DNA of 64,000 nt, from assembly GCF_964030895.1 (NCBI RefSeq), contig NZ_OZ034986.1, forward strand, positions 1,302,001-1,366,000. The letters run 5' to 3'. Of this stretch, positions 29,619 to 60,611 are shown one piece after another (positions within the stretch are counted from its first letter, which is position 1; each line of letters begins with the position of its first letter). The notes under the pieces are model-generated. The model was not told the DNA's origin. It did no database searches and saw only the letters and a list, made by a program, of their open reading frames with translations. The position numbers were made by a program, and so were the translations under genes. Source of the DNA: Spiroplasma endosymbiont of Nebria brevicollis. Its GTDB lineage: Bacteria; Bacillota_I; Bacilli_A; Mycoplasmatales; VBWQ01.

Positions 29619-30194
29619 ATGGGCAACAAAAAAATTAATGGAGCAGATTATTTGCTATTGCTACTATACTTAAATAACAAAACTGATATTAAATCCGCGC
29701 TTAGACTAGTTAAAATGATGTTTTTATTTGAAAACGAAATTAATAAACAGTTAGTGGAAAAAGTCCCAGAGGAAAAGTTATCAAAATTTATGGCGTATAA
29801 TTTTGGTCCTTGGTCTAAAGACTTATATGAACAATTAAATTTTTTTGAAAGTTTAGAATTTATTAAAAAAAGAGATTGAAGTTATTGAAGAAATGGGTAA
29901 TTTTGATAATTTTTCTTATGAAGATGATATAGATTATGATCTAATTAATGATAAAGATTTAGAAGAAAATAAACAAAATATCATGTACACATATTCAATT
30001 TTGGAAAAGGGATAGAATATGTAGAAAAAGAAATATTGCCTTATATTTCAAAGAATGACAAGGATTTATTAGAAGCATTTAAGAAAAAAATATGTTCTCT
30101 AACTATTAAACAGATATTATATTATGTATACAAAAAGTATCCTGACTTTACAGTAAAGTCAGTTATTAAAGGAGAAGTAATAGGAAATAATTAG
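29619..30194 (+). pseudogene. SocA/Panacea (DUF4065)-like protein, frameshifted
   Basis: ATG 29619 (GTGGAGG site) opens a frame reading ADYLLLLLYLNNKTDIKSA, KFMAYNFGPWSKDLYEQL and LEFIKKRD. The YNFGPWS element after an N-terminal helical domain is typical of DUF4065, found in phage-related and antitoxin proteins. After an A-run at about 29868 the reading shifts to IEVIEEMGNFDN, and it shifts back near 30010 to IEYVEKEILPYISK and YYVYKKYPDFTVKS, ending in TAG 30192-30194. Two compensating shifts imply an original protein of about 190 residues. Its role is likely as antitoxin or regulator of the following genes; family assignment is moderate. Confidence 0.5.
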
Positions 30195-30195
30195 T

Positions 30196-30561
30196 ATGAC
30201 AGAATTTCATCAGCGAGAAGCTTATTTTAAAAAATTTAATAATATTGATACTTATAAAACTGAAGTACCAGTATATTCAAGATCGGTTGATGCTGTTATT
30301 TTAGATAAGAAATGTTCTAATTTATCAGCAATTGAATTTAAATTAACTAACTGAAAAAAAGTTATTGAACAGGCACAAAATATTAAAACTGCATTTGATT
30401 ATATTTCAATTTGCTTAATGGAACCTAAAAGAAATAACACTAAATTATTGATTATTGAAGAATGTAAAAAATATGGAATTGGACTTATTTTTTCCAATTA
30501 TATTAATGACTCCTATCTATTTGAAGAAATACTAAATCCAATAAAACAAGAGAAAATTTAA
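30196..30561 (+). CDS. Small protein with PD-(D/E)XK-type motif
   Basis: A 121-residue protein, 1 bp after the preceding gene. The core reads SVDAVILDKKCSNLSAIEFKLTNWKKVI: Asp, then E-F-K about 16 residues later, as in the PD-(D/E)XK nuclease fold, followed by an alpha helix with a Gln. A compact nuclease or nuclease-derived domain is the likely identity; metal-dependent cleavage is inference. The following TGT-like frame opens inside its last codons (30545). Confidence 0.5.
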
Positions 30562-31576
30562 AGATTATTTTAATCTTGCAGTTTTTAATGCAAATATAGT
30601 AGTTCATAATTCAAAGGCTATCGCTGATTTAATTTCTACGTATAAAAAAGAGTATATTATTGATCCACAAACTCATCTATATTTTGTTCTATATCTTCAA
30701 CAGAAACTCCACGTTCTTCTTCAATAATGATTTTTTGCAATCGAGGAGGCATTTGATCAAGATATAGAACAAAATATAGATGAGTTGACAAAGTATACGT
30801 ATGATTTTCAATATAGTTATATTTCAAAATTTATTGATGAAAAAGAATATAGCAAATATTTGAAGTTTGCAAAAATTAGCATTCAACCTAAATATTTAAT
30901 TGCTCCTTATTTTATGATTCGTTATAGTAGTGAAGCATTATCATGAATAAAAATTAATGCAAAATTATTAGATTCATTTTTAACGTTAAAAAATGAAGTT
31001 GATATAGCAGCAGAATTAATTATGGATAAAAATGTACTACAAAATCCTTTATTGATTAATGAAATCATTAATTCATATACTAAAGAAGGATATGACTATA
31101 TTTTTATCTGAATAGATGATTTTAATTTTTTTAAGGATAATAGTAGTAAGTATTTTGAAGGATTTAAAAAATTAATTAATGGATTTAATGCTCTTGAAAA
31201 AAAAGTTGTTAACTTATATGGTGGTTTTGGTTGAATTTTACTTTGTCATCATGAATCAAAATATAAGTTATATGGAGTTGCACAATCTACAGGATATGGA
31301 GAATCAAGACCTATTACTCCTGTTGGAGGTGGATTACCAATTAATAAATATTATTTTTTACCATTACATGAAAGACTTAAAATGCAAGAAGCAATTGACA
31401 TTTTAATTAAACAAGGTTATATGGAAAATGGTAAAAGTAATTCGAAAAATGCAGAAGAGTATTATAAAAATGTTTGTGATTGTAAACAATGTAGAGAAGT
31501 TATTAAAGATAATATTGAAAATTTTGAACAGTACAATCATTCTAATCCATTTGTAACTAAAAATAATATAAAGTAA
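30545..31576 (+). pseudogene. DpdA/tRNA-guanine transglycosylase-like protein, with an inverted internal segment
   Basis: Frame 2 is open to 30725 and again from about 30755 to 31576. The part between (30698-30758) is the reverse complement of coding sequence; reading it inverted joins both halves in frame (LDQMPPRLQK...RGVSVEDIEQ, total about 343 residues). The C-terminal half has VVNLYGGFGWILL, STGYGESRPITPVGGGLP, KYYFLPLHERL and the zinc-type CDCKQC. This combination matches TGT-like enzymes of the DpdA type, which exchange guanine for 7-deazaguanine in DNA. No normal start codon is visible, so it may be fused to or coupled with the preceding gene. It lies upstream of a SIR2 gene in one operon. 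Confidence 0.6.
30670..30786. repeat. 28-bp perfect inverted repeats around a 61-bp inverted segment
   Basis: Arms 30670-30697 and 30759-30786 are exact reverse complements; the 61 bases between them (30698-30758) are coding only when inverted. In the present orientation the frame hits TAA at 30725-30727. Confidence 0.9.
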
Positions 31577-31580
31577 AAAT

Positions 31581-31760
31581 ATGCCTACTCAAGATTCACT
31601 TGAAATTTCATCTAGACATTTTATGTATTGCAAAATTAAAGAGTGAGAAACTATTGATAGCAAGTCATATAAAGACATCATTAATATTTTAATTTCTAAT
31701 TCAAAAAAATATCAATATAATTCTAATATGAAGTTATGGTGTGATTTTTTTGAAAAGTAA
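31581..31760 (+). pseudogene. Probable detached C-terminus of the TGT-like protein
   Basis: A 59-codon frame from ATG 31581, four bases after the TGT-like stop but in another frame. It reads PTQDSLEISSRHFMYCKIKEW; the His in this stretch could be the last zinc ligand of the CxCxxC...H site of a TGT fold. I therefore read it as the C-terminal part of the same protein, split by a frameshift, rather than an independent gene. It overlaps the SIR2 start by 20 bp. Confidence 0.45.
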
Positions 31761-31953
31761 TAAAATAATTATAGTGACAGGAGCAGGTTTTTCGGTGCCT
31801 GCTAATCTTCCAGTTCAAGAAAGTATAATTAATAAGCTTTTATCAAGAGAAGAGGAAAACATGGATTTTATGAATAGTGAAATTATAATAGATGATAGTG
31901 TTAATTTTTTAAAAGCTTATATGAATATAGAATTAATAGACCCAAAATTGGAC
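31741..31953 (+). pseudogene. SIR2-like protein, 5' part
   Basis: GTG 31741 (overlapping the previous frame) starts MIFLKSNKIIIVTGAGFSVPANLPV. TGAGFSxPAxxP is the NAD-binding motif of SIR2-like domains that act as NADases in anti-phage systems. The ORF is cut at TTGGAC (31948-31953) by the plasmid-derived element; the rest lies at 40526-41619 in matching frame. An additional two codons and TAA (31957-31959) come from the insert. Confidence 0.75.
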
Positions 31954-31955
31954 AT

Positions 31956-32393
31956 TTAATTCATTAAAAATTCTTTAATTTCATGAGTATATATTTGATT
32001 GAAATAAAGCAATGAAGTATTAGTAATATTAACTGACAAGTCAATAATTTGTTTATTTATCTTTATGTTTAGTTTCTTTTCTATTTGTGAAACTAAAGTT
32101 GGATTATCACTAATCACGCCGTAAAAGAAACTACCAAAACTAGTGTTTCAAAATGTAGAATCTGTGACACCATTTACATTTACAGCATTATATTGTTCAA
32201 ATCTCACTGCTTTATCACTTTCATGACCTACAACAGGTCAAAATGAAATCTTTGTGATTTTTTCAATAGAAATGTTATAAGTTGGTGGATTTGGCTTAGG
32301 TGGTGTAGGAACATTTGCTGTACAATCAATTATTGTCATAGTTGGTAATGAGGTTAAACCTATAATTCCTAACAATTTTAAAATTAATCGCAT
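31956..32393 (-). CDS. Plasmid-borne lipoprotein
   Basis: A 145-residue protein with the lipoprotein signal MRLILKLLGIIGLTSLP then TIIDC, Cys at residue 24, followed by a Pro-rich linker (VPTPPKPNPPTY). ATG at 32393 has an ATGAGGTC ribosome site. The mature domain is unrecognised. Two Trp are TGA. The stop overlaps the junction with the SIR2 fragment. A TATAAT and the AATATATTGTGTATTGTA motif (32413-32430) lie upstream. Confidence 0.7.
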
Positions 32394-32912: not shown

Positions 32913-34246
32913 TGAACTTGTCAAGTAAAGTGGACAATAAAAAGAACCTTATATAATTATTATTATAAATGTTACATTAAATCTAATTTCATAGGAATAA
33001 ACTTAATATTTGTTTGGGGATGAGATAATCGATATTCGATTGGACTCATTCCTTTTAATTTTGGTTGTGGTCGATGATTGTTGTAAAAATAAATATACTT
33101 AGGTAAATTTTCTTTAATTCATTCAATAGTTCGTTTTTTTCTTGGAATCTGATATAAGAATTCAGTTTTCATAGTTCCAAACCATGATTCTGTTGCTCCA
33201 TTATCTGGAGAATTTCCTCTTCTGGACATTGATATTTTTATACCTAACGTATCACATAAAGTTTTATAAGAAGGGTTGGTATAATGAAAACCTTGATCTG
33301 ATTGTAAAATTCATGTTTTATACTTTCCAACATTAACTCAAGCTTGAATAATATTTTTTGTTACAAATGACATATCTAAACTTGAACTTATTTTGTAATC
33401 TAATATTTCATTATTGTGAAAATCCTTAACGATTGATAAATAATACGTTTTACCATTAGTTAGTAAATAGGTTATATCAGTGCCTAATTTTTGATTTAAA
33501 CCAGTAGTTGCAAAATTACGGTCTAATAAATTATCATATCTTAAACTGCCAGATTTTAACCTATAATCAAACTTCTTTGTTCTAATTTTGGATTTTAAAC
33601 CCATATTTTTCATATACCTATAAACAATATGTGGTTGTATGTTTAACTTATAAATTTTCTTTATTCAACAACAAATCATGTTATAACCATAAATTTCTTT
33701 GAACGCATAAAATGTACTTTTAATTATATTAGCAATAAATGGAATCCATTTATTAAACTGTTTCATACCATTGTTAAGTCATTTATAATAACCAGATTTT
33801 GAAACTTTTAATAATTTACAAAGGTAATTAACTGGATTTTTTGTTTGTAATTAAGATATCGCCTGGCACTTTCCCTTTGTCGATATCTCTAAATACTTTT
33901 TTAGATAATTCATTACCTCAATATATTGAATTAGTTCTTCTTTAGTCATTTCATTTAAATCAAGAGTTTTAGGTCTACCTTGCCGTTTACCTTTTGATTG
34001 GATACCTTTTCCTGGAATAAGACTATCTTCACCTAAAGTTCTTATAGATTTGCGTCATCTTTTAATACTACTTTTATCAACATTTAATATTTTACTTGCA
34101 GTAATACAACCTAAACCTTCTACTTTTTTTAACATTTCTATTTTTTCTTCTTTTGAATATCATTTATGCAGAAAATGAACACCTCTCTCAATAAAGTTTT
34201 ACCACAAAATGGTTCTTTTTTGTGTCTACTTTATTATAGGTGATCA
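32913..34246 (-). mobile_element. IS3-family (IS150-type) element, copy A
   Basis: 1,334 bp, the same length as copy B (38551-39884) and apparently near-identical in reverse orientation. Ends are imperfect terminal repeats beginning TGAACTTGTCAAG and TGATCACCTATAAT, both leading into AAAGT(A/G)GAC. It carries OrfA (helix-turn-helix, GRPKTLDLNEM) and OrfB (integrase with TDITYLL, DQGFHYTN, NGATESWFGTMKTE). In this copy the codon corresponding to 39484 of copy B is TGA (Trp; 33311-33313), so OrfB is open there. No target duplication is obvious. Confidence 0.85.
32979..34190 (-). pseudogene. IS3-type transposase OrfA/OrfB of copy A
   Basis: OrfA begins near KWYSKEEKIEM and ends at a TAA after KGKCQAIS. 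OrfB resumes in the same frame with NPVNYLCKLLKVSKSGYYKW and runs to KFIPMKLDLM. An A-rich CTAAAAAAG before the junction could support the programmed frameshift usual in IS3 elements, but the minus-one frame also stops soon, so I cannot show a complete OrfAB. DDE residues are present (TDITY, DQGFHYTN, TESWFG). Confidence 0.65.
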
Positions 34247-34956: not shown

Positions 34957-35797
34957 TAGGAAATTATCCCCGCATGTACTTATAGTAAGCACAAAATCAG
35001 GGTTTCAAAAGTTAGAAGTTTATTAAACTTATATGCATATTCTTTGGCATATAAGTGAATGTTTTCTTTTGAAACCCTGACATGAGTTTCTGAAAGTCTT
35101 CCTCAAATGTTTTCACACTGACTCAATTTGATTTGTGTTGACACCATTTGATGACACATAACCAAATTGATGATATCCTTTTCAAGAATCAGTAAACAAT
35201 GGACAGCTAACAGAAATGTGCTGCAAAGCAAACTTCAAAAGGTTTTTCTTGTCTGCTTTTTTTAAAACTTTCACAATTAAATTATTGGTTGTTTTTTCAT
35301 AAATGCCAACAATCAATGTTTTATTCAACAAAGATCTCCCTTGTTTTTTTGAACCCATATATGAAAGAAACATTTCATCCATTTGTGGAATGCCATTGAC
35401 AATGAGTTGTGATTCTTGTTTTGCAATTCTATTTCTGATTTCATGACCCATTCTTCAAGCTGTTTTATAAGTCACACCTAATTCTTTTGTAAGATCTGTT
35501 GCAGGTATGCCATGCTTGGTGTTTATTCATCTAAAGATAAGATAAAATCAAAATGTCAATTTGGTTTGTGACTTATAAAAAATGGTGCCATGTAAGATGC
35601 TAAATGTTTGATGACATTTCAAACATCTTATTCTTCTAAAATCAGAAACATTTAGACATTTGGTGTCACACTTGATACATTTAATTGTTTTCAAACTTGC
35701 GATATATTTTAAACAATCTTTTTCTGTTTGAAAACTGTTGTTGAACTCGTTGAGTTTCATTTTTTCTTCCACAAATACATGCGGGGATAATTTCCTA
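34957..35797 (-). mobile_element. IS1595-type (ISXO2-like) insertion sequence
   Basis: 841 bp with perfect 22-bp terminal inverted repeats (34957-34978 and 35776-35797; core GGAAATTATCCCCGC). The unusually GC-rich ends stand out. It contains one intact transposase gene and interrupts a coiled-coil gene. No 8-bp target duplication is visible, so either it was lost or flanking DNA was rearranged. Confidence 0.88.
35029..35772 (-). CDS. IS1595-family transposase
   Basis: A 247-residue transposase. The N-terminal zinc ribbon is IKCIKCDTKCLN...RIRCLKCHQTFS (CxxC, CxxC). The DDE-type (ISXO2-like) core has PQMDEMFLSYMGSKKQG, CPLFTDSWKGYHQFGY and VNTNQIESVWKHLRKT, giving the D-D-N/H-E set. Four Trp codons are TGA. 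The frame is intact, so the element may be mobile. Inside its 3' end, AGGGTTTCAAAAG / CTTTTGAAACCCT (34999-35075) forms a strong hairpin that may end transcription. Confidence 0.88.
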
Positions 35798-60456: not shown

Positions 60457-60611
60457 AATTACACCTCATTATTAAACTTTTTTATTTTTTCACTAATAAA
60501 TAATATTTTGTTTTTTATAATAAGTAAAAAATTATTAAAATTTAAAATTAAAAAATTACTAGGATATAAAATTATTAGTGAAAAAATAAAAGTTATTAAG
60601 AAACAAATTGT
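60457..60611. other. Short intergenic stretch
   Basis: AT-rich, with only short open frames; nothing supported. Confidence 0.3.

Follow-up and report, generated by a model that had tools for sequence, protein, structure and literature searches.

Single template switches are known to make perfect stems and to invert the loops between them (PMC8794818). In yeast REG2, one switch turned a 5-bp arm into a 16-bp arm and flipped the spacer, and the inversion of a spacer between existing perfect arms is the usual case in yeast (PMC8604942). Intragenic invertons have been described as well (Chanin et al. 2024, as cited in PMC11868660). The locus described here lies in a 64,000-nt stretch of DNA, the window, from the Spiroplasma endosymbiont of Nebria brevicollis (contig NZ_OZ034986.1, positions 1,302,001 to 1,366,000). 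A perfect 28-bp inverted repeat with a 61-nt spacer occurs in it within a decayed gene for a protein with a CxCxxC motif (Table 1). Judged by its sequence, a single replication template switch probably produced the repeat and the reversed spacer together, as a one-off scar in an already decaying gene.

The two arms are exact reverse complements (28/28), and no perfect inverted repeat of the window with arms at most 200 bp apart is longer, while the longest inverted repeat in 10 Markov copies of the window is 16 bp. As single-stranded DNA, the arm region has a predicted fold of -27.1 kcal/mol (z -6.6). Further copies of the arm sequence were not found in the genome within 3 mismatches. A 344-kb sample of the 1.49-Mb genome contains only one other perfect pair that reaches 28 bp, which has a 9-nt loop and is located at L028:5409-5473 (G000:C1:125409-125473). 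The second-longest inverted repeat of the window, at 60480-60591, has 20-bp arms and a 72-nt spacer in AT-rich DNA. TGA codes for tryptophan in this organism, code 4 being the only one under which the frames are open. Unaltered, the frame of the CxCxxC gene meets a TAA stop at 30725, inside the flipped spacer, and when the spacer is reverse-complemented the frame is open and both flanks are joined. The perfect 28-bp repeats with their 61-bp spacer, the stop, and the open frame after reversal had all been reported in a preliminary description of this DNA, and all are confirmed.

The closest homologue of the gene is in L005, the locus of the same cassette in G006, a genome of the same genus. The L005 copy reads ...KEYIIDPQTHIFQYDSAQIISKK, has a frameshift of its own, and continues with KIKASINKFLLEMPKNLSKILIARTINADKIQNNLNELVECVYNFQ. 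The minus-strand spacer peptide DQMPPRLQKIIIEEERGVSV (starting DQMPPRLQKIII...), followed by EDIEQNIDEL, aligns with LEMPKNLSKILI...DKIQNNLNEL of L005 at the same place. The anchored protein score of this reversed reading is 47, with a shuffled mean of 19.8 and none of the 5000 shuffles reaching 47, and the remaining five readings of the spacer have anchored scores of 13-28. The spacer taken by itself has a local protein score of 32, which is reached by 0.02% of residue shuffles and by 0.05% of the window's random open 20-codon pieces. The reversed reading is the only one that matches L005, and the loop is inverted relative to the ancestral state. An open frame alone is weak evidence, as 41% of random 20-codon stretches in the window are open. 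The reversed spacer is regarded as real coding sequence because its reading matches the homologue, a decisive support that was absent from the preliminary description. The inversion of ancestral coding DNA claimed there is supported by this match, and the comparison with relatives proposed there finds a related, not an unrelated, peptide at the spacer position of L005.

On the left flank, the homology to L005 is close up to CACAAACTCA and ends at about 30677, approximately 7 nt into the left arm. The 21 nt of this arm past AACTCAT match L005 at 6/21 positions, which is the chance level (shuffled mean 7.8). On the right flank, the homology starts at 30761 and spans the right arm, where EDIEQNIDEL is aligned with ...DKIQNNLNEL. 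Between QTH and MPKN there are about 26 codons in L005 against about 8 in the flipped version of the window. The microhomology AACTCAT occurs in the native left flank and also in the native right arm when this is read in reverse complement, and the residues at both places (QTH and EL) are conserved in L005. Because the left homology stops, the right arm is covered, and the codon numbers differ in this way, the right arm appears to be native and the left arm appears to be new beyond a microhomology of about 7 nt (possibly up to 13). In this comparison with a single close homologue, the right arm has a counterpart and the remainder of the left arm has none. A segment inverted between pre-existing repeats, as first proposed, is probably the wrong description, since the left arm without a counterpart seems to have been produced by the same event.

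In the proposed single switch, the left flank would have been copied up to ...CACAAACTCAT, and the growing strand would then have paired, at the right arm, with the opposite strand through a complementary stretch of 7 to 13 nt (AACTCAT...). A total of 89 nt would have been copied back in reverse complement, the right arm first and then the 61-nt segment, and at the start of the right arm the strand would have gone back to its own template. The net effect would be a newly made 28-bp repeat, a 61-nt segment reversed relative to the frame, and the loss of about 70-80 nt of native coding DNA, and the gene hit would belong to a decaying Panacea/SIR2 cassette. The perfection of the arms is the expectation for one recent copy. 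The arrangement of arms and spacer is read directly from the DNA; the polarity, strand and timing of the switch are inferred. Of the two mechanisms offered in the preliminary description, the one-off template switch is favoured. This is a known kind of mutation, here unusually large and clear.

Several points weigh against this single switch. L005 is the sole close homologue and is itself frameshifted. The distant L007 (24% identity), from an uncultured Mycoplasma metagenome-assembled genome, has about the same short length at this place as the flipped version of the window, and the difference of about 20 codons could be an insertion in the lineage of L005. The DNA alignment of the spacer to L005 scores 57 in the order as it stands and 51 when flipped, which is AT-rich noise between sequences too diverged to show orientation; the orientation is resolved by the protein comparison only. 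In addition, the join of the flipped version to the left flank is in frame, as a pre-existing repeat predicts; a template switch gives such a join by luck in about 1 in 3 cases. In a two-step history of that kind, the intact gene of an ancestor held the 28-bp repeat, or a slightly imperfect one, and the spacer was flipped later by template switching or by recombination between the arms. This history agrees with the single open frame that flipping the spacer alone restores across both sides, with the similar length of L007 at this place, and with the usual spacer inversion between perfect arms in yeast (PMC8604942). It is nevertheless rather unlikely, since L005 lacks a counterpart of the left arm, and chance is not a credible source of a perfect 28-bp repeat in coding DNA, so that an earlier copying event would be needed anyway.

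An artefact, in the form of a misassembly or of a strand-displacement chimera from whole-genome amplification or library preparation that was taken into the consensus, is improbable. An inverted sequence with an intervening deletion is the usual form of phi29 amplification chimeras (PMC1855051), and the two frameshifts of the neighbouring Panacea-like gene, in or near base runs, are like sequencing errors. Such a chimera would, however, have to prevail in the consensus of a genome assembled as one contig, and a real lesion is unsurprising in a cassette that bears other lesions and is also decayed in a second genome. The perfect arms and the inverted coding segment are also features of a reversible phase switch, namely an intragenic inverton (a class described in work cited in PMC11868660) that toggles a defence-like gene. 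The preliminary description had considered such a phase-variable switch for a costly defence gene, which is very unlikely given the missing start codon, the broken neighbours and the lack of a detected recombinase. No in-frame ATG, GTG or TTG follows the stop at 30542 before the repeat begins, and therefore flipping would not yield a full gene; the flipped state still lacks a start and the N-terminal 20-35 or so residues of the homologues. The adjacent genes are frameshifted or truncated, and the cassette of the relative is decayed too. A search of the genome (G000) for tyrosine and serine recombinases, by PF00589 (Phage_integrase) and PF00239 (Resolvase), returned none, with controls found in 14/14 and 10/14 cases, and the arm has no other genomic copy. 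A segment of 61 nt is short for looping by a site-specific recombinase. There is scarcely any chance that the cassette is a variant, still able to work, of an undescribed Panacea/SIR2 defence system in which the 61-bp coding loop flips to and fro via its perfect 28-bp stem, driven by replication and without a recombinase.

Table 1. Features of the decayed cassette and of the inverted repeat (window coordinates; L005 and L007, homologous loci)
Feature	Position	Strand	Remarks
Panacea-like gene	29619-30193	+	Frame broken twice (near 29870 and 30005) relative to L005 471-1052 and L007 395-955
Small gene	30196-30561	+	Homologous to L007:930-1412; about 30 C-terminal residues missing
Decayed CxCxxC-protein gene	30543-31576	+	No ATG/GTG/TTG start before the repeat; stop 30725 in the flipped segment; 3' end shorter than that of the relative
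Left 28-bp arm	30670-30697	+	First ~7 nt (AACTCAT, to 30676) native coding; remainder most likely copied in reverse complement from the right arm
61-nt spacer	30698-30758	- relative to the reading frame	Minus-strand reading encodes DQMPPRLQKIIIEEERGVSV
Right 28-bp arm	30759-30786	+	Native coding sequence, EDIEQNIDEL
SIR2-like fragment	31741-31959	+	72 aa, against 392 aa in L007

The gene that carries the repeat is the third of a four-gene cassette common to two mollicute genera, which spans 29619-31959 in the window, 471-2485 in L005 and 3991-7535 in L011. The cassette comprises, in order, a Panacea-like protein, a small protein, the CxCxxC protein without a family match, and a SIR2-like protein. 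An intact four-gene version is present in the Mycoplasma genome (L007/L011); an AbiEii toxin gene lies on the opposite strand at a distance of about 1.1 kb, with one unassigned gene in between. The cassette is a candidate for an undescribed defence or toxin-antitoxin system. The Panacea-like copy of L007 matches SocA_Panacea weakly, below the cut-off (E 0.012), and PADLOC PDC-M19A with E 4e-6. The frame breaks of the window copy were read by eye against L005 and L007, and sequencing error is possible for its two indels, which are in or near base runs. The small protein has 161 aa in L007, and in L005:1050-1150 the small second gene seems to be internally deleted (remnants IEFKLSN... and ...YDIGLTF, by eye). 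The cassette of G006 appears to be decaying too, with this internal deletion and with its CxCxxC gene frameshifted after SKK. The fourth protein of L007 begins with a SIR2-type motif. No family match was found for this protein itself, and the SIR2 label is based on the L005 copy and on the N-terminus common to the window and L007 copies. Transposase genes of the IS3 type (rve, 32975-33766) and the IS1595 type (35032-35772) are located just downstream of the decayed cassette on the minus strand. A Spiroplasma ixodetis plasmid carries an insertion sequence (IS) element with 77% identity to one in the window, which, together with the use of TGA for tryptophan, indicates a Spiroplasma-like mollicute.

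The L007 homologue of the CxCxxC protein (P0001) has 450 aa, and its structure prediction as a single protein has a pLDDT (predicted local distance difference test) of 39. The label TGT-like (tRNA-guanine transglycosylase) first given to this gene is not sustained, as there is no Pfam, NCBIfam or PDB match and the protein shows only a CxCxxC motif. The N-terminal residues of the L005 and L007 homologues are missing from the window gene, apparently through a deletion that took away the end of the preceding gene as well. Besides L005 and L007, no convincing homologues were found in viral contigs, plasmids, phages, genome contigs, or two sets of about 390 genomes, one from the class and one from the phylum. 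L008, a weak match, is set in genes unlike those of the window. The matches of L022-L024 are weak too (E 8e-5 to 5e-4), and two of these three lie in frames interrupted by stops.

Like the intragenic invertons of Chanin et al. 2024, as cited in PMC11868660, the locus has intragenic inverted repeats and, between them, a segment that determines the reading frame by its orientation. It differs from the invertons as described there in that no recombinase was found, the flipped frame has no start codon, the neighbours are broken, and a single orientation is known. Programs that search for invertons would flag a segment flipped between perfect repeats, yet such a segment can be a one-off scar in which the repeat is the product and not the cause. 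Inverted-repeat template switching in yeast coding DNA (REG2, PMC8604942) is similar in that short imperfect arms become long and perfect and the spacer is flipped by a single interstrand switch. The yeast spacers have a few bp (PIM1 3 bp, REG2 5 bp) and the outcome is amino-acid replacements, whereas here the spacer has 61 bp and the frame is broken. Short-range template-switch mutations of the four-switch-point model (PMC8794818, PMC7954356) share the nearby reverse-complement copy, the perfect stem, and the inverted loop where the source spans the loop. In contrast to these, the present case is in a bacterial pseudogene and would involve 89 nt copied, a 61-nt loop, and about 70-80 nt deleted, while the largest pattern noted in PMC8794818 is 59 bp. 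It would represent a clear and large bacterial example of one copying error that gives a long perfect hairpin, a reversed coding sequence, and a deletion.
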